A DNA stretch of 64,000 nucleotides from Kitasatospora acidiphila. Lineage in GTDB: Bacteria > Actinomycetota > Actinomycetes > Streptomycetales > Streptomycetaceae. The position numbers and the translations under genes are program-made. The notes under the pieces were generated by a model. That model had not been told where the DNA came from. It made no database searches and saw nothing but the letters and a program-made list of their open reading frames with translations. Shown in pieces: positions 5,364 to 63,741 of this stretch; the stretch's first letter is position 1, and each line of letters begins with the position of its first letter. The stretch spans positions 558,001-622,000 of the forward strand of contig NZ_VIGB01000003.1 of NCBI RefSeq assembly GCF_006636205.1. The letters run 5' to 3'.

Positions 5364-6188
5364 ATGCACGGTTCTCCTCCCTTCCGTCGTCGGCGAAGGG
5401 CAACTAACGCGGTGGTCACCGGGCTGATGACCGTGGCGGGATGGCTCGGGGCGGCTGCTCCGGCCTTCGCCGACTCCACCGGCACGGTGACAGGCGGTCA
5501 GGAAAACTACTCGTACATCAACGAACGCGCTGCTCCGCACCTGTCCGCGTCCCTCGTGGGGCAGGCGTCCCCCGGCAATACGGTGAACATGAAGTGCCAG
5601 ACCCAGGGCGACACCGTCGACAACGACTCCCGCTGGATCTGGTCGGGCTCCTTCTTCATCGCCGACGCCTTCATCTCGGAGAGCACCGACTCCCTGCCCG
5701 GCTGCGGCCAGTCCTCCCTGCCGATCACCATGCAGAAGCAGGTCCAGGACGAATGGTGCTGGGACGCCTCCGGCCTGACCATCGCCAACTACTGGGGCTA
5801 CAACCAGTACAACCAGTACGACTTCTGCAACCTCGCGAACGAGTACAGCGGCATCAGCTGCAACGACCGACCCGCCACGCTGGACGACATGGCGGGCGCG
5901 CTGTGGGAGATGGGCTTCGCCAGCACCGGCAGCGACCTCAACCGCAGCGCCACCTTCGCGGAGACCGCCAACGAGATAGCCGACAACCGCCCGTTCGCGG
6001 TGCGCATCGGCTGGACCTCTGGAGGCGGGCACATGAACGTCATCTACGGGTACGACCCGTCCTCGAACATGATCGCCGTCGGCGACCCGTGGCCGTCTAC
6101 CCAGACCTACACCTGGTGGGACTACAGCAGCTACGTCAGCAACAACTCGTTCCGCTGGACCCACTCCCGGATCGGGATCCACAACTGA
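5364..6188 (+). CDS. Secreted papain-like cysteine protease, AvrRpt2 type
   Basis: A 274-residue preprotein. A basic N-terminus (FRRRRRATN) and hydrophobic core (TGLMTVAGWLGAAAPAFA) form a Sec signal peptide, probably cut after AFA around residue 36. Residues about 45-115 look like a small SH3-like module (ENYSYINERAAPHLSASLVG). The catalytic domain follows. QKQVQDEWCWDASGLTIANYW supplies the oxyanion Gln and nucleophile Cys in the EWCWDA context of AvrRpt2-type proteases. GGGHMNVIYGYD supplies His, and AVGDPWP the third catalytic residue. The start has a good ribosome site (AAGGAA) eight bases upstream. The stop is 17 bases before the next gene, a secreted protein likely co-transcribed. The substrate is unknown; a role in extracellular proteolysis or antagonism is inferred. 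Confidence 0.8.
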   Translation: MHGSPPFRRRRRATNAVVTGLMTVAGWLGAAAPAFADSTGTVTGGQENYSYINERAAPHLSASLVGQASPGNTVNMKCQTQGDTVDNDSRWIWSGSFFIADAFISESTDSLPGCGQSSLPITMQKQVQDEWCWDASGLTIANYWGYNQYNQYDFCNLANEYSGISCNDRPATLDDMAGALWEMGFASTGSDLNRSATFAETANEIADNRPFAVRIGWTSGGGHMNVIYGYDPSSNMIAVGDPWPSTQTYTWWDYSSYVSNNSFRWTHSRIGIHN

Positions 6189-24528: not shown

Positions 24529-25970
24529 TAGGGCTTGGTCAGGTCGGCTCGGTGGTGGCGTGTCCTTTGTGCCGGGTGGCGCGTTGTTGAGGTGTGACAC
24601 CTGGGGAGATGGCCGAGGTCCGGGAGGACCTGGAGGCGTTCGCGGCGGAGATGTTCGGTGCGTTCACCCGTGCCGATCAGCGCCGTTGGGGGCAGGCGTA
24701 TGTGCGGGGTCTGCTGTTGGACGGCCGGAGGAAGTCGGTGGAGCCGATGGCCGCGCGGCTCGGTGAGGACGGCAACCGGCAGGCCCTGGCGCACTTCGTC
24801 ACGACGAGCCCGTGGGACCCCGCGCATGTCCGTGCGCGGCTGCCGTGGAGGATGCAGGATGCCATCGCACCGACCGCGCTGATCATCGACGACACCGGGT
24901 TCCTCAAGGACGGGGACGCCTCGGCCTGCGTGTCGCGCCAGTACACCGGGACAGCGGGCAAGGTCACCAACTGCCAAGTGGGCGTGTCGCTCCACCTGGC
25001 CCGCGACCACGCCTCCGCGCCGGTCGACTGGCGGCTGTTCCTCCCGGCGAGCTGGGATGCGGCCTCGGCGAAAGCGGATCCGGACAAGGTCGCCCGCCGC
25101 ACCCGGTGCGGCATCCCCGCCGACCTGGGCCACGTGGAGAAGTGGCAGCTGGCGCTGGACATGATCGACGAGACCCGGTCCTGGGGCGTCCACGTCCCGC
25201 TCGCCGTCGCCGATGCCGGGTACGGCGACGCCGCCGCCTTCCGCCTGGGCCTGCAACAGCGAGGCCTGCACTACGTGGTGGGGATCTCCACCACCCTGTC
25301 CGCGCACCCCGGCGAAGCCCGTCCGTTCACACCCGCCTACAACGGCACCGGCCGGCCGCCGGTGGCGAAGTACCCGGACAAGCCCCGCAGCGTGAAGGAG
25401 CTGGCCATCGCCGCCGGACCGAAGGCGGCCAAGCCGGTGTCGTGGCGAGAGGGATCCCGCCCCGGCCGCGCAAGGAGCGGCTTCAAGCGGATGTACTCGC
25501 GGTTCGTGGCCCTGCGGATCCGCCCCGCCGGGCGCGAGGTCCGCGACGCCACCGAAGGCGCGGAGCTGGCCGAGTGCTGGCTGCTGGCCGAATGGCCCGC
25601 CAAGGAAGCCGAACCGGTCCAGTTCTGGCTCTCCGACCTGCCCGCCGACACCCCGCTGACCACGCTGGTCCGAACAGCCAAGCTCCGCTGGCGGATTGAG
25701 CACGACTACCGGGAGATGAAGCAGGCCCTGGGCCTGGCCCACTTCGAGGGCCGCACCTTCGGCGGCTGGCACCACCACGTCACCCTCGTCTCCCTTGCCC
25801 ACGCGTTCTGCACCCTGCGCAGGCTGAACACCGCCCCAAAAGACACGGCGCCGGCCTGAGCCTCTACCAGGTCGTCCGCCAGCTGCAGACACTCCTGGCG
25901 ACCTGGGCCGGCGCCTGCCCCACCTGCCACCGCGACATACCCACACGACAACAGACCTGACCAAGCCCTA
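24529..25970. mobile_element. Complete IS701-family insertion sequence
   Basis: A 1,442-bp element bounded by perfect 17-bp terminal inverted repeats: TAGGGCTTGGTCAGGTC at 24,529-24,545 and its complement at 25,954-25,970. It is flanked by a 4-bp target duplication CTAG (24,525-24,528 and 25,971-25,974), which fits the YTAR duplications known for the IS701 family. It carries one transposase gene on the plus strand. Intact ends and an intact duplication indicate a simple, fairly recent transposition event with no later rearrangement at either border. Confidence 0.92.
24594..25859 (+). CDS. IS701-family transposase
   Basis: A 421-residue DDE transposase starting from a GTG at 24594 (VTPGEMAEVREDLEAFAAEM). 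The family N-terminus is followed by the catalytic core. The first Asp is in PTALIIDDTGFLKDG, the second in VPLAVADAGYGDAAAF, and the Glu in the YREMK region (RWRIEHDYREMKQALGLAHF). This is the Y-(2)-R-(3)-E-(6)-K signature of the IS4 superfamily. The frame stops at 25857 after TAPA. An adjacent frame continues with LSLYQVVRQLQTLLATWAGA and CPTCHRDIPTRQQT, which looks like the natural family C-terminus, so a one-base shift may have shortened the protein by about 33 residues. Whether the element is still active is uncertain. Confidence 0.85.
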   Translation: MTPGEMAEVREDLEAFAAEMFGAFTRADQRRWGQAYVRGLLLDGRRKSVEPMAARLGEDGNRQALAHFVTTSPWDPAHVRARLPWRMQDAIAPTALIIDDTGFLKDGDASACVSRQYTGTAGKVTNCQVGVSLHLARDHASAPVDWRLFLPASWDAASAKADPDKVARRTRCGIPADLGHVEKWQLALDMIDETRSWGVHVPLAVADAGYGDAAAFRLGLQQRGLHYVVGISTTLSAHPGEARPFTPAYNGTGRPPVAKYPDKPRSVKELAIAAGPKAAKPVSWREGSRPGRARSGFKRMYSRFVALRIRPAGREVRDATEGAELAECWLLAEWPAKEAEPVQFWLSDLPADTPLTTLVRTAKLRWRIEHDYREMKQALGLAHFEGRTFGGWHHHVTLVSLAHAFCTLRRLNTAPKDTAPA

Positions 25971-30202: not shown

Positions 30203-30694
30203 TCACGCCTCGGCGGCGTCCGGATCACGCAGTGGTCGCAGGCCGCCGGGCAGGTCAAGGAGCTGGAAGGAGTACCGGCCGAGCATGTTGACGTGGTGCC
30301 GCACGAACGGTGAGAGGCGAGCCACGTCCTCGTCACGGACGTCGAAACCGTCCATCCGCAGCCGCTTCACCGCAGCCTCCATGGACCGCGTGTTGCACAG
30401 CACGAGGGCGTCGAGGACCAGCCCCGGCGCCCCGATCTGGTCCTCCATGCCGTCCCACTCGCCCTGGCGATCGGTGAGCCACGGCCCAAGACCTGGACGC
30501 TTCCACGGAGTGATCACCGCCGAGACGTCCAAGTCCTCGACGGATCCGACGGCCTCCCAGTCCTGCGTCAATGCATGACGGGTAGCCGACTCTGCCTGGA
30601 CCAGGTGCGACACCTTGCCCTCGTCCCCATGGGTGTCCGACACCCGGGAACCCACCACCGCCCGAACCGGCACCGACGTCTTCACACTGGACAT
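30203..30694 (-). pseudogene. Chimeric remnant: serine recombinase N-terminus fused to Tn3 transposase C-terminus
   Basis: One open frame of 163 residues. The first part from the ATG at 30694 (VPVRAVVGSRVSDTHGDEGK through PWKRPGLGPWLTDRQGEWD) is paralogous to the serine recombinase at 2039. At about 30,440 it switches to DQIGAPGLVLDALVLCNTRS, EDVARLSPFVRHHVNMLGRY and SFQLLDLPGGLRPLRDPD, the unmistakable C-terminus of a Tn3-family TnpA. Neither part contains a complete active site: the resolvase catalytic helix and most of TnpA are missing. The joint preserves the reading frame. It is most likely a deletion scar between two elements. Confidence 0.75.
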
Positions 30695-30737
30695 GAGCAG
30701 CCCCAGATCACGCCAGCTGCCGCCACCGCCCGCCCGC

Positions 30738-30905
30738 TGCACCTGAAGAGCGCACCCCGGGCTCCCCGGATGAACGCCCGCTGCGAGCGAGTGATCGGCA
30801 GCATCCGGTGTGAGGCCCTGGACCATGACCTCGTCATGAACGAGGCCCACGCCCGGTATGTCCCGGCCACCTACCAGCGGCACTGCAACGAGCACCGACA
30901 GGCTG
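30738..30905 (+). pseudogene. IS3-like integrase-core fragment
   Basis: The plus strand reads SAPRAPRMNARCERVIGSIR, then EALDHDLVMNEAHARYVPAT and YQRHCNEHR. This is the end of an rve integrase core (usual PRAP-x-xNA-x-xER, with the catalytic Glu, and Y-x-x-H-x-NxHRPH). Only this C-terminal piece is present, on the opposite strand and directly beside the chimeric recombinase/Tn3 scar. Confidence 0.6.
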
Positions 30906-33874: not shown

Positions 33875-36255
33875 ACAGTTGTACGACATCCGGCAATTGC
33901 CGAGGATAGATCGCATCCGTCCGGGCCGCGCACGGGTGGCTCCCGCGCGTCCTGACGCAGGCCGCCGAGGGCGGCGCGGAGGGGACTGGCCACCGACGCA
34001 CAGCTGCAACTCCTTGGAGTGCCGGCCTACACCGGCATGCCTGAACGGCCGCTGACGCCTGCTCCTTTCCCGGTGGCGATTCTGGCATGTCCGGCAAGTC
34101 GAGACGTTGAGGGGTGCGCGGAAATGGCTGTGTTCGACGGCGAGCTCAAGGAACTGATGGCCGGTCAGCTCGAGATCTGGCAGGCACAGCAGCTCGCGCC
34201 GGAGAATCCGGTCTACAACCTCGGCGAGTACCTGGAGATCCGCGGCGACCTCGACGTCGGCCTGTTCACCGAAACGCTCCACAGGCTGGTCGCCGAAGCC
34301 GAGACCGTACGCCTGCGGTTCCGCACCGATGCCGCCGGGACGCCCCGGCAGTACGTCGGCGACGTCCCCGAAGACCTGGTCCAGCTCGTCGACTTCAGCA
34401 GCGAACCCGACCCGCGAGCGGCCGCCGAGAGCTGGATGCGCGAGACCGTCACCCGGCCGGCCGACCTCAGCGGCGGCCCGCTGTTCGGGTTCGCCCTGCT
34501 CACCCTCGGCCCGGACCTGCACCTGTGGTACCAGGGTTACCACCACCTGCTCATCGACGGCATGGCCGGCAGCGTCCTCAGCACCCGGGCGGCCCGGATC
34601 CACGACGCACTGCTGCACGGCCAGGACCCCGCCGACGGCGCGCTGGAACCACTCGCCCTGCTGCTCGACGCCGACCGTGCCTACCGGGTGTCGGACGACC
34701 TCGACCGCGACCGCGCCTACTGGCAGGGCGTCCTCGCCGACCTCCCGCAGGTCGTCGAAGCGGGCACCGACGGCGCCGCGCGCCCGTCCCGCGGCCGGCG
34801 GCTCCCGGAACGGCTCGAACGCCACATCGCCGCCCTCACCACCGACGAGCTCGCCGAACTCAGGACCGCCGCCCGCCGCCTGCGCACCAGCCTCACCGGC
34901 CTGATGGCCTGCGCCGCCGCCGTCCACCGGCACCGCCTCACCGGACAGCGCGACATCGTCATCGGCCTGCCCGTCGCCGGTCGGACCGGACGGCGCGAAC
35001 TCGCCGTCCCCGGCATGACCTCCAACAACCTGCCGCTCCGGGTGCGGATCGAGCCGAACACCCCGCTGGCCGACCTGGTCCGCCAGATCTCCGACGCCGT
35101 CCGCGAGGGCCTGCGCCACCAGCGCTACCGCTACGAGGACATCCTGCGCGACCTGCGCCTGACCGACGGCGACCCGCTGTGCGGCCTCTACGTCAACGCG
35201 ATGGCCTTCGACTACCCGGAGAAGTTCGGCAGTTGCCGCGTCACGGCGGTGCGCAACGTGTCCACCGGGCCGATCGACCACACCCGCGTCAACCTCTACG
35301 CCCGCGGTGGTGACTTCGGCGTCCAGCTCGACGTCGACGTGAACCCCGCCCTGCCCGACCAGCTCCCGGCCCGGGACGTCTCCCGGCAGCTGCGCCGCGT
35401 GCTGGCCTGGCTGGTCACCGCCGAACCCAGCGAGCCGGTCGGCCGGGCCGGTCTGCTGGACCGGGACGAGCAGCGCCGTGTCCTGGTCGAATGGAACGAC
35501 ACCGCCCGCGACCTGCCGCCCGCAACCGCCGTGGACCTGTTCACCGCCCAGGTCGCGGCCCGCCCCGACGCCGTGGCCGTCACCGGCGAGGGCGTCCACC
35601 TCAGCTACGCCCAACTCGACGAACGGGCCAACCGGCTCGCCCACCACCTCGCCGCCCGGGGCGTCGGGCCGGAGACGGTCGTCGCCGTGTGCCAGCACCG
35701 CGGAACCGACCTGGTGGTGTCGCTGCTCGCGGTGTGGAAGGCCGGAGCCGCCTACCTGCCGATCGACCCGCAGTACCCCGCCGAACGCATCCGCCACCTG
35801 CTCACCGACAGCCGGGCGGTGGCCCTGCTGAGCGAGCAGGACATCCTCGACGAACTGCCCGCCGGGCGCCTGCTGACCGTGGCCGTGGACTCCGCCCCGG
35901 TCCACGCCGCGCTGGCGGCCGCACCCGCCACCGCACCCGGTACCGCCCTCACGCCGGCCGCCCTGGCCTACGTGATCTACACCTCGGGCTCCACCGGCAC
36001 GCCCAAGGCCGTCATGCTCACCCAGGCCGGCGCCGTCAACCTGGCCGTCGCGCAACAGGAACGCTGCGCTGTGGACCGGCACAGCCGCGTCCTGCAGTTC
36101 GCCTCGGTCGGCTTCGACGCCGCCACCTGGGAACTGCTGATGGCGCTCTGCTCCGGAGCGAGCCTGGTTGTGGCCCCCGCGCGCGACCTACTGCCCTCCC
36201 CCGCGCTGACCGACCTGATCGCCCGCCACGGCGTCACCCACGCCACCCTGCCCCC

Positions 36256-56992
<20,737 letters not shown>

Positions 56993-56996
<4 letters not shown>

Positions 56997-57466
56997 TCCG
57001 CGTCACCACGGCCGCCGAGCCCGGCAGCGGACGCTGGCTGGCCCTACTGCGCATCCACCACATGGTCCAGGACCACACGACGATGGAGGTGCTCCTCGAC
57101 GAGCTGGCCGCCTTCATGACCGGCCGCGCCGACCGGCTGCCGCAGGCGCTGCCGTTCCGCAACTTCGTGGCGCAGGCCCGCCTCGGCGTGTCGCGCGAGG
57201 AGCACCAGCGGTTCTTCGCCGGCCTGCTCGGGGACGTCACGCAGACCACGGCCCCGTTCGGCCTGCTGGACGTGCACGGCGACGGCAGCGGCGTGGACCT
57301 GGCACGACTGGCGGTCGACCAGCGCCTGGCCGACCAGGTGCGAGCCCTGGCCCGCCGACTGGGAATGAGCGCGGCCCCCTCTTCCACCTCGCCTGGGCGC
57401 GGGTGCTGGCGGCGGTGTCGGGCCACGACGACGTGGTCTTCGGTACGGTGCTGTTCGGCCGGATGA
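56993..57466 (+). CDS. NRPS reading-frame segment 4: middle of E/C8
   Basis: A short frame carrying the central part of the module 8 epimerization/condensation domain: [20 protein letters not shown], the HHMVQDHTT active-site motif, [20 protein letters not shown] and [12 protein letters not shown]. At 57,375-57,379 another five-C run shifts the frame. After RLGMSAA the expected continuation ([20 protein letters not shown]) is in the next segment, while this frame wanders on to a stop at 57,464. Confidence 0.75.
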
Positions 57467-60400
57467 ACGCCGGTGCCGGCTCGGACCGGGTGCCCGGCCT
57501 GTTCATCAACACCCTGCCGGTGCGGGCCCGGACCGGCGACGCGGGCGTGTCGTCGGCATTGACCGGGATGCGGGACCAACTGGCCGAGCTGCTGGTGCAC
57601 GAGCACGCCCCGCTCGCCCTCGCACAACAGGCCAGCGGTGTGCCAGGCGGCAGTCCGCTGTTCACCTCCATCCTCAACTACCGCTACCGGCAGGTGGTCG
57701 AGCAGCCCGGCGCCGGGCTCACCGGCATCACGCTGCTGAGCTCCGACGACCACACCAACTATCCGCTGAGCGTGTCCGTCGACGACGACGGCGAGGGATT
57801 CTCGCTGACCGTCCAGGCGGTCCGGGTGGCCGCCGACGACGTGTGCGTGCTGCTGCACACCGCCCTCGCCGGGCTGGCCACCGCCCTGGAGGCCGCCCCG
57901 GACACCCGGGTGGCCGATCTGCCGGTGCTGGACCCGGCAGCGCGGCACCGGCTGCTCACCGAGTGGAACGAAACGAGCCACCCCGAGAGCGATGTGACAC
58001 CACACCAGTTGATCGAGGCGCAGGTCGCCCGGACACCCATGGCCACCGCCCTGCTCTTCGAGGGTGCCGAGCTCTCGTACGCCGAGCTGAACGCACGGGC
58101 CGAGCAGGTGGCGCGCGGGTTGGCCGACCGCGGGATGGGTGTCGAGTCGGTGGTCGCGGTGGCGCTGGACCATCCGGTTCGGCGGACGATCGCGATGCTC
58201 GCGGCCTGGAAGACCGGCGCTGCCTACCTCCTGCTGGATCCGCAGGGCCCGGCGGACCGGACCGAGTCGGTCCTCGCCGACCTCGCGGCCGCCGGTACCC
58301 CGCTGCTGGTGCTGGACGAGGCGCAGCTGCAAGCCGTTCTGGACGGCGCTCCGCACTCCGGCGCGCCGCGCCCCGCGGCGCTGCCGGAGCACCTGGCCTG
58401 CCTGCGGGTGACGGCGCGGACCTCGGCGACCGCGGCTGCGAACCGCAGTGTGGTGAACAGGTGGGCCTGGCTGGGAGAAGAGTGCGGCCTGTCGTCGTCG
58501 GACCGGGTGTTCGCGGTCGACCCCTCCTCCCCCGAGTTCCTGCGGCCGCTGGCCGAGGGTGCCGCACTGGTGCTGTCCCGACCGGCCGGGTACCTGGCCC
58601 CGGCCCGCCTCGCGGCCCTGCTGCGCGAGACGGGGGTGACGGTCGCACACCTGACCGGCCCGCTGCTGGAGCTGCTGGTGACCGAGCCCGCGGGCGCGCG
58701 GTATCCGGGCCTGCGGGCGGTGTACTGCGCCGGTGACGGGCCGACGGCCGCGACACGTGATCGGTTCCTCGAAAGCTCCGGTGCCCGGCTGTCCACCCTG
58801 CTCGGGGCGACGGCCGCGCGCTGCGAGGCCGGCGACGGCGCGCTGGTGCCGATCGGCCGACCGCTGGCCAACACCAGGGTCTACGTGCTGGACGCGGCGC
58901 TGCGGCCGGTGCCGGTCGGCGTCGAGGGCGAGCTGTACGTCGCGGGTGCCGGCCTGGCGCGCGGGCTCACGGGCGGTGCCGCCCTGACGGCGCAGTGGTT
59001 CGTGGCCTGCCCGTTCGAACAAGGAGGAAGGATGCACCGCACGGGCGAGCGGGTGCGGTGGACCGCGGACGGTCGTCTGGAGCATCTCGGCGGTGCGGAC
59101 GAGCGGGTGGTGATCCGCGCGGTGCCGGTCGAGCCGAGCCAGGTTCGGGGCGTGCTGACCGGTCACCACGCGGTGGCCCAAGCGGTGGTGGTCGAGCGGG
59201 ACGGAGCGCTGGTCGGGTACGTGGTGCCGGCCGGCGTCGGCGCCGCACTCGACGACGCCGCACTCGAGGAGCTGCGGGCGCATGCCGCCGACCGGTTGCC
59301 CGAGCAGGCGGTGCCCGCGGTGCTGTCGGTGCTGGACTCGCTGCCGTTGGCCCCGGACGGGAGCCTGGACCGCACCGCGCTGCCCGTACCGGACGCCCGC
59401 TCGGCAGCGGAACCGGCACGGCTGCGCGGTCCCGCCACCGTGCAGGAGGAGATCCTGTGCCAGGGCTTCGCGCACGTCCTGGGCCGGGAGGGCGTCGCCG
59501 TGGACGACAACTTCTTCGCGCTCGGAGGCCACTCGCTGCTGGCGGTGGCACTGATGGAGTACCTGCGGGCCTACGGCATGTCGATCTCCATCCGCGCCCT
59601 GCTGCGCAACCCGACACCCGCGGGGCTCGCCGCGGTGGCCGGTCCGGCGCAACTGGTCGTGCCGCCGAACCTGGTTCCCGACGGCGCCGAGGAGCTCACA
59701 CCCGAGATGCTGCCGCTGGCCGGGCTCACCGCGGCCGAGCTCGACCGGGTGGTCGCCCAGGTACCGGGCGGCGCGGCCAATGTCGCGGACGTGTACCCGC
59801 TCGCGCCACTGCAGGAGGGGCTGGTCTTCCACCACCTGATGTCCGGTCAGGACGGTGGCGAGGCTGATGTGTACGACGCTCCGACGGTGCTCGGCTTCGA
59901 CACCCGGGAGCGGTTGGACGCACTCCTGGCGGCGCTGCAGCAGGTGGTGGACCGGCATGACGTCTACCGCACGGCGATCGTGTGGGAGGGGCTGCGGGAG
60001 CCGGTGCAGGTGGTGCTGCGCAGGGCGGAGCTGCCGGTCCGGGAGCTGGAGCCGGGCACCGCGGGTACGGACCCGGTGGAGCGGTTGCTGGCCGCCGGCG
60101 ACACCCGGATGGACCTGCGCCAGGCCCCGCTGATCCGCGTCACCACGGCCGCCGAGCCCGGCAGCGGACGCTGGCTGGCCCTGCTGCGCATCCACCACAT
60201 GGTGGGTGACCACACGACCGAGGCCGTGCTGCTCGACGAGGTGCGCGCGTTCATGTCGGGGCGGGGCGGGGCGCTGCCGCAGCCGTCGCCGTTCCGCAAC
60301 TACGTGGCGCAGGCCCGCCTCGGTGTGTCGCGCGAGGAGCACCGGCGCTTCTTCGCCGAGCTGCTCGGGGACGTCACGGAGACGACGGCACCGTTCGGCC

Positions 60401-63400
60401 TGCTGGACGTGCACGGCGACGGTCGCGACATCCGGCAGGCGCGGCTCGACATCGACGGTGAGCAGGCCCGTCTGATCCGCGAGTCGGCCCGCCGGTACGG
60501 GGTGAGCCCGGCCACCGTCTTCCACCTGGCCTGGGCGCGGCTGCTGGCAGCGGTGTCGGGGCGCGACGACGTCGTCTTCGGCACGGTGCTGCTCGGCCGG
60601 ATGAGCGCCGGTGCGGGCTCGGACCGGGCACCCGGCCTGTTCATCAACACCCTGCCGATGCGGGTGCGGGTCGACCGGGTCGGTGTGGCCTCGGCATTGA
60701 CGGGCGTCCGGGACCAGTTGGCCGAGCTGCTGGTGCACGAGCACGCGCCACTCGCGCTGGCACAGGGCGCCAGCGGTCTGCCCGGCGGCGAGCCGCTGTT
60801 CACGTCGATCTTCAACTATCGGCACAGCGATGCCCCGAGTGCGAACACGGCCCCGGGAGTGGACGGCATCACGGTGCTGGCCTCGCGAGACCTGACCAAC
60901 TACCCGCTCGCCGTGTCGGTCGACGACCGTCGAGCGGGGTTCACGGTGACCGCCGAAGCGGCGGCGCCGGCCGATCCGGAAGCGATCGGCGAGCTGCTGC
61001 GGCTGGCCGTCACCAACCTCGTCACTGCGATGGCCGAGGCTCCCCGGTCCAGGCTCAGCGCGGTTCCGGTCCTCGGCGCGGAGGAAGCCCGACGGATGCT
61101 CACCGAGTGGAACGCCACGGGGCGCGGCCTGCCGGCGGCGACCGTGCCGGAGCTGTTCGCCGCACAGGCCTCGCGAACGCCGGACGCGGTGGCCCTGGTG
61201 GCTGATGGCATCCGGCTCAGCTACCGGGAGTTGGACGCGCGGACCAACCGGTTGGCGCGGCTGCTCATCGGCCGGGGCGTCGGCCCGGAGGCCGTGGTCG
61301 CGGTGTCGATGGAGCGCGGTGCCGAGCTGGTGGTGACGCTGCTGGCGGTGTTGAAGGCGCACGGTGCCTACCTGCCGGTGGATCCGAACTACCCCGCCGA
61401 GCGGATCGCGTTCATGCTCGAGGACGCGGCGCCCGTCCTGCTGGTGACGGGCGCGGGGGCGCCGACCGTGGCGTCCGACCTGCCCCTGGTGGAGCTGGAG
61501 GCGCCCAGCACGGTCCGGCTCCTCGAGCGGATGGACGACGGCCCGCTGCGCGCGACCGAGTTGCCCGGCCGGCTGACCGTGGACAACGCGGCCTACCTGG
61601 TCTACACCTCCGGCTCGACCGGGCGGCCGAAGGGCACGGTGATCCCGCATCGGGCCATCGACCGCCTGGTGCGCCGCGGTGGCTACCTCGACCTGGGTGC
61701 GGGCGACGTGGTCGGGCAGTTGGCCTCGGCCTCCTTCGACGCGGCGACCTTCGAGATCTGGGGCGCCCTGGCGGGCGGCGCGACGCTCGCGATCCCTGCG
61801 GCCGGGGTACTGTCCGTCGCCGAGCTGCGGGAGTTCCTGACCGTCCGTCAGGTCACTGTCGCCTTCCTGACGACTGCTCTCTTCAACGAGCTGGTCGAGT
61901 GGGATGTGACGGCCCTGCAGGGGGTGCGGCAGGTGCTGACCGGCGGGGAGCAGCTGTCCGGGGCGCACTTCCGCAAGCTGCTCGAGCGCCTGCCCGGGGT
62001 ACGCCTCAGCCATGTCTACGGGCCGACCGAGAACACCACCTTCACCACGGGCCACCTGGTGCGGACGGCGGACCTGGCGGGTGCGGGCGGCGTCCCGATC
62101 GGCGGCCCGATCGCCGAGACCCGGGTGTTCGTGCTGGACAGGTCGCTGAACCCGGTGCCGGCCGGAGCGGTCGGGGAGCTGTACGTGGCCGGCGCGGGTC
62201 TGGCACGCGGGTACGCGGGGCGCCCCGCCCTGACGGCCGAACGATTCGTGGCCTGCCCGTTCGCAGTGGCGGACCGGATGTACCGCACGGGTGACCTGGT
62301 GCGCTGGACCGCGGACGGAGAGCTGGTGTTCGTCGTGCGCGGGGACGACCAGGTGAAGATCCGCGGGTTCCGGGTCGAGCCCGGCGAGGTCCAGGCGGTT
62401 CTGGCCGAGCATCCGGCGCTGGCCCAGGTCGCGGTGATCGCCCGCGAGGGCGCCCCCGGCGGCAAGCACCTGGTCGGGTACGTCGTCCCGGCGGCCGGGG
62501 TGCAGGCACCGGCCGGGAACGCGGGCGACCTGGCCGGCGCCGTTCGCGCCTTCGCGGCCGAACGGCTGCCCGGCCATCTGGTCCCGGCGGCCGTGGTGGT
62601 GCTCGACGCACTGCCGCTGACGGTCAACGGGAAGGTGGACCGCCGGGCGCTCCCCGCGCCGGAGTACGGCGTCACGGCCGAGCCGCCGACCGAGCAGGGG
62701 CCGGTGGGCGCGCTCGCGACCGGCATCTGCGAGGCCTTCGCCGAGGTGCTGGGGCTTCCCGCCGTCGGCCTCGACGACGACTTCTTCGCGCTGGGCGGCC
62801 ACTCGCTGCTGGCGATGTCACTGGTGGAGCGGCTGCGCCTGCGCGGCGTCTCGGTCTCGGTACGCGACGTGGTCGCGGCCCCGACGGTGTCCCGGCTGAT
62901 GCGGTCCCTGGGCCGGCCGGCCATCGCCGACGCACTCGCGGTGCTCCTGCCGATCCGGACCTCCGGAAGTCGGCCGCCGTTCTTCTTCGTCCACCCGGGA
63001 GGAGGCCTGAGCTGGTCCTATGCACCGCTGGCCCGGCACATTCCGCAGGAGCATCCGCTCTACGGCTTGCAGGCCCGCGGGCTCGACGGCGCATCGGGGC
63101 TCGCGCCCTCGCTCCGCGCGATGGCCGCGGACTACCTCGCGCAGGTCCGCGCCGTCCAGCCGACCGGTCCCTACCACCTGATCGGCTGGTCGTACGGCGG
63201 GATGGTCGCCCACGAGATGGCGGTGCAGGCGAGGGCGGCGGGTGAAGAGGTGGCGGCGCTGGTCATCCTGGACGCCTACCCCGCACCCGCCGCGCAGTCC
63301 GCCGACCGCGGCGGGAACGCCCCGGGCGGTCGGGCCGATCAGGTCGAGCAGGCTGCCGAGATCGACCGGGCGAAAGCCGAGGCCCGCGAGCGCCTCGCCG

Positions 63401-63741
63401 GCGTCGTCGGGGACCTCACCGACTCGGAGCTCGCCGCTGTCGCCCAGGTGGTCGTCAACCACCTCCACCTGCCCGCAGAACACGAGTTCGGCCGGGTCGA
63501 CTGCGATGCCCTGGTCATCGTGGCCGAGCACGATCCGCGTGCCGACGAGGCGGATCCGCAGGCATGGCGGCCGCACATCACCGGAACGATCACCGCGGCC
63601 GGCCTGCCCTGCGATCACGACGCGATGCTGCGGCCCGAGATGCTGGAGCCCCTGTGGAGCACCATCGCGCAGTGGCTGACACGATCCCCCGGTGACCCGC
63701 ACACCCGGTCACCTCGCGGGCGCGGCGGCAGCGACAGCTGA
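57379..63741 (+). CDS. NRPS reading-frame segment 5: end of E/C8, modules 8-9 and thioesterase
   Basis: One frame of about 2,120 codons from [15 protein letters not shown] of E/C8 to the natural stop. It contains the rest of E/C8 ([10 protein letters not shown]), the degenerate A8, an intact T8 ([17 protein letters not shown]), a full module 9 (E/C-A-T) and a C-terminal type I thioesterase (from [20 protein letters not shown]). The TE has nucleophile Ser in [12 protein letters not shown], Asp in VILDAYPAP and a late His in [10 protein letters not shown]. The C-terminal 20 residues are a Ser/Arg/Gly-rich tail. This is the termination end of the assembly line. Confidence 0.88.
59660..62930 (+). 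other. NRPS module 9: dual E/C - A(Ile-like) - T
   Basis: E/C9 starts almost identically to E/C8 ([20 protein letters not shown]), with [16 protein letters not shown] and [10 protein letters not shown]9 has P-loop [15 protein letters not shown] and code DAFFLGVTF, a branched-chain pocket that I read as isoleucine; valine is possible. Its wording (YGPTENTTF) differs from the other A domains, suggesting a separate origin. T9 is [17 protein letters not shown] and leads straight into the thioesterase. Confidence 0.7.
62950..63741 (+). other. NRPS C-terminal type I thioesterase
   Basis: About 260 residues of alpha/beta-hydrolase fold after T9. The domain opens with [20 protein letters not shown] and [11 protein letters not shown]. 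The nucleophile elbow GWSYGG is at about 63,184-63,201. The acid is in [10 protein letters not shown], and the His in DHDAMLRPE near the end. It releases the finished peptide by hydrolysis or by cyclisation. The wording ([21 protein letters not shown]) is typical of actinobacterial and EntF-like TEs. Candidate internal nucleophiles are Thr3 and Ser7. Confidence 0.85.

Follow-up and report, generated by a model that had tools for sequence, protein, structure and literature searches.

How does a module of an NRPS load its carrier once its own adenylation (A) domain has lost the residues needed for catalysis? This question is raised by the eighth A domain (A8) of a nine-module enzyme encoded in the window, i.e. 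the whole stretch of 64,000 nucleotides analysed here (C3:558001-622000, in a genome of 8.58 Mb and three contigs). A further condensation domain precedes A1 in this enzyme. Upstream of the NRPS gene, the window also carries a DDE_5 transposase (24609-25856) and a Tn3 transposase fragment (30206-30742), as well as two separate proteins, the first with an Mrr_cat restriction endonuclease domain (552-1175) and the second with a papain-like Peptidase_C70 domain (5412-6185). The features of the NRPS are listed in Table 1.

Table 1. Features of the NRPS gene and of module 8 and its neighbours (positions in the window).
Feature	Position	Strand	Basis or remarks
NRPS gene	34130..63741	+	C-A-T, then eight C-A-T modules, TE; breaks ~36251, 48692, 56989, 57375
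A7, intact motifs, predicted Ser-type (pocket DVWHFSLVDK), 500 aa	54774..56273	+	nearest A8 relative (52%)
T7 carrier domain	56292..56483	+	
C8 condensation domain	56649..57930	+	spread over three frames; contains HHMVQDHTT
A8, A domain without catalytic motifs, 481 aa	57955..59397	+	alignment, motif comparison, TIGR01733
A3 (P-loop) remnant of A8	58393..58434	+	4-residue in-frame deletion
A4 remnant of A8	58510..58536	+	5-residue in-frame deletion just before; Asp235 position kept, 58519-58521
A5 remnant of A8	58795..58815	+	YGPTE changed to LGAT, then 7-residue in-frame deletion
Motif A7 of A8, changed	59035..59049	+	YRTGD changed to HRTGE
Motif A8 of A8, eroded	59089..59142	+	[18 protein letters not shown]; intact form RxDxQVKIRGxRIE
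Motif A10 of A8, changed	59356..59373	+	NGKLDR changed to DGSLDR, catalytic Lys to Ser
T8 carrier domain	59425..59616	+	GGHSLL serine intact at 59533-59535
C9 condensation domain	59785..61098	+	HHMVGDHTT; nearest C8 relative in this enzyme
A9, intact motifs	61102..62667	+	pocket DAFFLGVTFK

As proposed in an earlier interpretation of this DNA (the sequence-only reading), A8 is a nearly full-length A-type domain in a single frame with the Ser-type A7 as its nearest kin: residues 1-500 of A7 align with its 481 aa in one frame, at 48.6% identity. By comparison with the six other A domains of this enzyme whose frames are unbroken, the P-loop, YGPTE and TGD (now TGE) are gone, as are much of the RGxR region (listed earlier as the RIEPGEV region) and the Lys of motif A10 (now Ser); these losses had been reported before. 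P-loop, YGPTE, TGD and the A10 Lys are the features by which functional A domains were recognised here, and A8 has none of them in intact form. It is predicted to be catalytically dead and cannot be expected to adenylate. Asp235 had been counted among the losses as well; most of motif A4 is indeed gone, but the residue aligned to Asp235 is still Asp, and His and Leu are likewise retained at the places aligned to pocket positions 278 and 322. The pocket letters of A8, taken by alignment column, are DPPHYAL--S.

Profile scores for A8 are divided. With TIGR01733 (NCBIfam) it obtains 220.5 bits, below the cut-off of 317.4, whereas A2, A3, A4, A6, A7 and A9 obtain 400-460 bits; A1 and A5, whose frames are broken, were left out of this scoring. 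PF00501 (Pfam, cut-off 29.9), on the other hand, matches A8 above its cut-off, in two pieces of 68.4 and 76.1 bits. Compensating frameshifts hidden behind the lost motifs were also considered and rejected, since A7 aligns with the full length of A8 in one frame and the best match in another frame has an E value of 0.91; a motif scan of the three plus-strand frames gave just two PRGA matches.

The erosion of A8 could be viewed as part of the decay of the entire NRPS gene, A8 and the frame breaks being stages of one pseudogene. Four breaks within an assembled gene of ~29.6 kb speak for this explanation, which we nevertheless consider very unlikely. Three of them were found by a frame detector and the one near 56989, which the detector missed, by tblastn. 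All four coincide with runs of exactly five C; 21 C runs of this length occur in the gene, and none that is longer. Furthermore, in 20 random stretches of this genome (338 kb of called coding sequence) the detector found 39 breaks, whereas 20 stretches of a single-contig congener (342 kb) had 15. Because of this excess, the four breaks of the NRPS gene are likely to be assembly errors. The type of break is not distinctive, as the same type accounts for 34 of the 39 breaks here and for 11 of the 15 in the congener, and the ratio of 6-runs to 5-runs of C or G (0.106, versus 0.134 in the control genome) only mildly favours run shortening. Moreover, the other A domains retain their core motifs, and therefore the gene appears to have been maintained while A8 was eroding. 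The loss of constraint throughout the gene that characterizes a pseudogene was not found, considering these core motifs and the dN/dS of 0.35 of the T8 core. The earlier statement that the frame is open throughout holds for A8-T8-C9-A9-T9-TE, but not for the whole nine-module gene as assembled. Similarly, both domains flanking A8 had been described as usable; C8 contains two of the breaks (~56989 and ~57375) and would be usable only if these are assembly errors.

The open frame of A8 had also been taken as proof that its decay is not neutral. This does not follow: any break in A8 would also remove T8-C9-A9-T9-TE, so the downstream modules protect its frame and the argument is weak. A conclusion similar to the one drawn from the frame can however be reached from the retention of conserved residues. 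In a set of 34 A domains with intact motifs, 91 columns are at least 97% conserved. Of the 44 that lie in active-site motifs A8 retains 19, and of the 47 outside them 43 (Fisher p 9e-7), the motif ranges that define this split being the analyst's choice. If gap columns are dropped, the counts are 19/40 inside and 43/47 outside (p 9e-6). The 34 intact-motif domains themselves retain 94-100% of these near-invariant columns in a leave-one-out comparison. Region by region, A8 keeps 18/25, 10/14, 27/30 and 13/14 of the columns that are at least 90% conserved outside the motifs, and 8/30, 4/6 and 10/18 of those inside. At positions that vary among A domains as a whole but have the same residue in A7 and two of its relatives, A8 keeps 34 of 84. 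These counts indicate that the active-site positions of A8 behave as unconstrained, and the other conserved positions do not. Beyond the near-invariant columns A8 is not exceptional: at columns that are 80-90% conserved, it matches 48 of 82, about like A2, A3, A6 and A9.

Branch dN/dS values point in the same direction. They are NG86 three-sequence estimates, with three outgroups for the A domains, and as strong codon bias distorts NG86 values, they were used only relative to each other: A8 is at 0.73-0.88 versus 0.22-0.30 for A7 and, within A8, the active motifs are at 1.10-1.35 versus 0.65-0.79 for the remainder. Concerning the fold that such retention might preserve, AlphaFold run on A8 aligned with 29 of the 34 other A domains yields an A-domain fold (pLDDT 85.6, pTM 0.82) that resembles solved NRPS A domains, for instance 4d56 (TM 0.81). 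Prediction from the A8 sequence alone fails (pLDDT 39.3). Therefore, AlphaFold was not accepted as proof, and the fold of A8 is supported by residue retention and not by the model.

The origin of A8 is best explained by its surroundings. A7-T7-C8 and A8-T8-C9 form a single DNA alignment of 2475 columns with 75.8% identity, which starts midway in the A domain, spans T and stops shortly before C ends. T8 is nearest to T7 (65%), with [11 protein letters not shown] identical in both, and C8 and C9, which share 81% DNA identity over 1188 columns, are nearest relatives within the enzyme. Since the two units form this tandem repeat, A8 is likely to be a decayed sister of A7, a predicted serine domain whose pocket code is presumably that of serine. 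A tandem A-T-C duplication would fit these data best, and A8 itself supports A7 as its sister only weakly. Its best match is A7 (401.8 bits, 52%), with an A domain from a different NRPS of this genome close behind (399.1 bits), and the codon tree places A7 beside A8 with 65% support, on branches of 0.50 and 2.19, respectively. This narrow lead and this support count against the reading, preferred below, of A8 as a decayed sister of A7 that is replaced by A7 in the loading of T8. Patches with 97-98% DNA identity between T7-C8 and T8-C9 occur at 56528-56648 (against the T8-C9 linker), 56828-56888 and 57007-57067. Outside the patches, identity in this repeat is 52-92% per 60 bases, with 63-75% for the T cores. 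These patches, in T-C linkers and C domains, suggest later gene conversion at those places, and the good state of C8 may be owed to conversion with C9; the branch dN/dS of these two domains (0.47-0.55 for C8 and 0.65 for C9) is clouded by it.

We looked for orthologs of A8, whether intact or equally eroded, and found no close match in the genomes searched. Against 60 other genomes, the best match of the protein reached 373.7 bits and 50% identity (1024.7 bits for A8 against itself), with up to 26 candidates scored per genome. At the DNA level, two of 69 further genomes from this genus gave partial matches, at 70-71%, with 5 candidates per genome scored, and 393 other genomes drawn from the family gave none with an E value of at most 1e-150 (3 candidates scored per genome). 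A further search, in which records of this genome or very near ones may be absent, returned six loci at 31-38%. In a protein search passed by 6868 candidates of 0.55-1.75 times the query length, a range by which full-length orthologs could be missed, the highest identity among the best 120, apart from the window's own proteins, was 57% over 55% of the query.

How, then, would T8 be loaded? T8 still has [13 protein letters not shown], as described before, and its phosphopantetheine serine is intact. Around it, the core shows a constraint like that of T7 (dN/dS of 0.35 for both, with T5 as outgroup) and C8 has HHMVQDHTT, its frame being broken as assembled. With the T-C linker included and two outgroups, T8 is at 0.32 and 0.41, and T7 at 0.33 and 0.26, by which T8 may be slightly relaxed. 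Its core is changed at 6 of 32 near-invariant columns and those of the other T domains at 1-4 of 28-31 (T2 rows left out). From the synonymous branch lengths (0.41 for T8, 0.37-0.45 for A8), T8 would be of about the same age as A8. T8 has been kept about as well as T7, and the simplest interpretation is that it is still charged, by A7.

The sequence-only reading had offered two ways out, the skipping of the module and the loading of T8 by another A domain. Under the first, the chain on T7 would pass directly to C9, T8 would remain empty and the product would be an octapeptide. We regard this as unlikely. It agrees with an A8 that is not expected to adenylate, with the mild signs of relaxation in T8 and with the kinship of C9 and C8, by which C9 could accept a T7-bound chain. 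However, a bypassed carrier should relax, and T8 has kept both its serine and a core dN/dS like that of T7. Furthermore, in the skipping of a module during myxochromide synthesis the inactive part is the carrier itself, whereas the serine of T8 is intact. Loading by another A domain thus fits somewhat better than skipping.

The other A domain might be that of a stand-alone A or A-T protein that is encoded elsewhere, acts in trans and perhaps supplies a residue other than serine. Such a protein is known from albicidin, where a stand-alone A-T has been proposed to complement an A domain that is inactive (PMC8949500), and the genome contains 131 AMP-binding matches (129 of 151 candidates scored). 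However, none of these scored candidates gave a match outside this NRPS in C3:515844-645474, i.e. from ~76 kb upstream to ~23 kb downstream. Moreover, 67 coding segments were predicted over the window plus the 20 kb that follow it, and among the 30 given to Pfam (one of which is the start of this NRPS) there was no stand-alone A-T. Nine other sequences of the genome match A8 with an E value of at most 1e-85: eight lie in frames of 1968-7451 aa and the ninth, of 561 aa in a broken frame, lies in the NRPS region at 2.3 Mb. We therefore hold a loader in trans to be quite improbable.

A candidate loader is found in the same protein, as A7, with intact motifs, lies directly upstream of module 8. 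Our preferred reading, held tentatively and at somewhat less than even confidence, is that A8, a decayed sister of A7, has lost its catalytic residues and that A7 would charge T8 with serine in its place. First, a unit of A, T and C whose A domain is of the serine type would have been duplicated. As T7 and T8 would thus derive from one carrier, both could be charged by A7; catalysis by A8 would then have come under relaxed selection, and the domain would have remained in place as a folded spacer that separates C8 from T8. A nonapeptide would still be made, its eighth residue being serine. The wider proposal, that A8 is a pseudo-adenylation domain acting as a folded platform that lets A7 serve two carriers, in a bacterial in-cis line that arose by tandem A-T-C duplication, is somewhat less probable.

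An A domain this eroded in an otherwise complete module had been called unusual, an assessment that needs to be tempered, as inactive or degenerate A domains in complete modules are already in print (PMC8949500, PMC10192304, PMC2644324). That inactive A domains are served by other A domains is likewise already known, for albicidin and SidD. According to the account in PMC8949500, the main-line A domain of the albicidin system is non-functional, with poorly conserved core motifs, and a stand-alone A-T is proposed to complement it in trans; ramoplanin, enduracidin and naphthyridinomycin are given there as similar cases. A8 resembles the albicidin domain in its degraded core motifs and in the proposed complementation by another A domain (PMC8949500). 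However, the albicidin loader is a stand-alone A-T of the same cluster, whereas none was found near A8, for which the nearest candidate is the intact A7 of the same protein.

Other cases are closer to loading within one protein. In the fusarinine synthetase SidD/Nps6, A1 reportedly loads both T1 and T2 because module 2 has an inactive A domain, and in SidC, A3 loads T4 (PMC10192304). As we propose for A7, the A domain of the preceding SidD module serves its own carrier and that of the dead module; however, SidD is fungal and, as reported, its inactive A domain lacks ~290 residues, whereas A8 has 481 aa versus 500 for A7 and its losses are concentrated at the active-site motifs (PMC10192304). 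In the ferrichrome synthetase Sib1 of S. pombe, the second A domain is described as degenerate and the first is proposed to take over in cis (PMC2644324). Like A8, this domain lacks many signature motifs in a module that is otherwise complete; however, Sib1 is a fungal enzyme for which three A domains are counted and iterative use is described (PMC2644324), whereas the present one is a bacterial line of nine modules. Experimental evidence from bacteria comes from capreomycin, where CmnA-A1 loads CmnI (PMC12400406). There too, a carrier is charged by the A domain of a different module, as proposed for A7 and T8; however, CmnI is a separate protein without any A domain (PMC12400406), whereas A8 is present in the same protein as A7.

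What distinguishes the present case is a nearly full-length A domain devoid of its catalytic motifs, next to a sister that is intact, in a bacterial enzyme of nine modules, together with the measured contrast in A8 between active-site and other positions. If our preferred reading is true, this would be a natural bacterial module that works after the death of its own A domain, with the intact sister alongside for comparison. Where products are predicted by counting one residue for each A domain, the count could then be wrong for this NRPS. It also raises a question for engineering, namely whether a dead A domain can be used as a spacer if an adjacent domain takes over the loading of its carrier.

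Two further A domains of this genome, in the NRPS cluster at 2.25-2.39 Mb, are split. They lie at C3:2292317-2293290 and C3:2348428-2349401, have nearly equal Pfam scores and both continue in another frame. This pair is either a recent duplication or an assembly duplicate.
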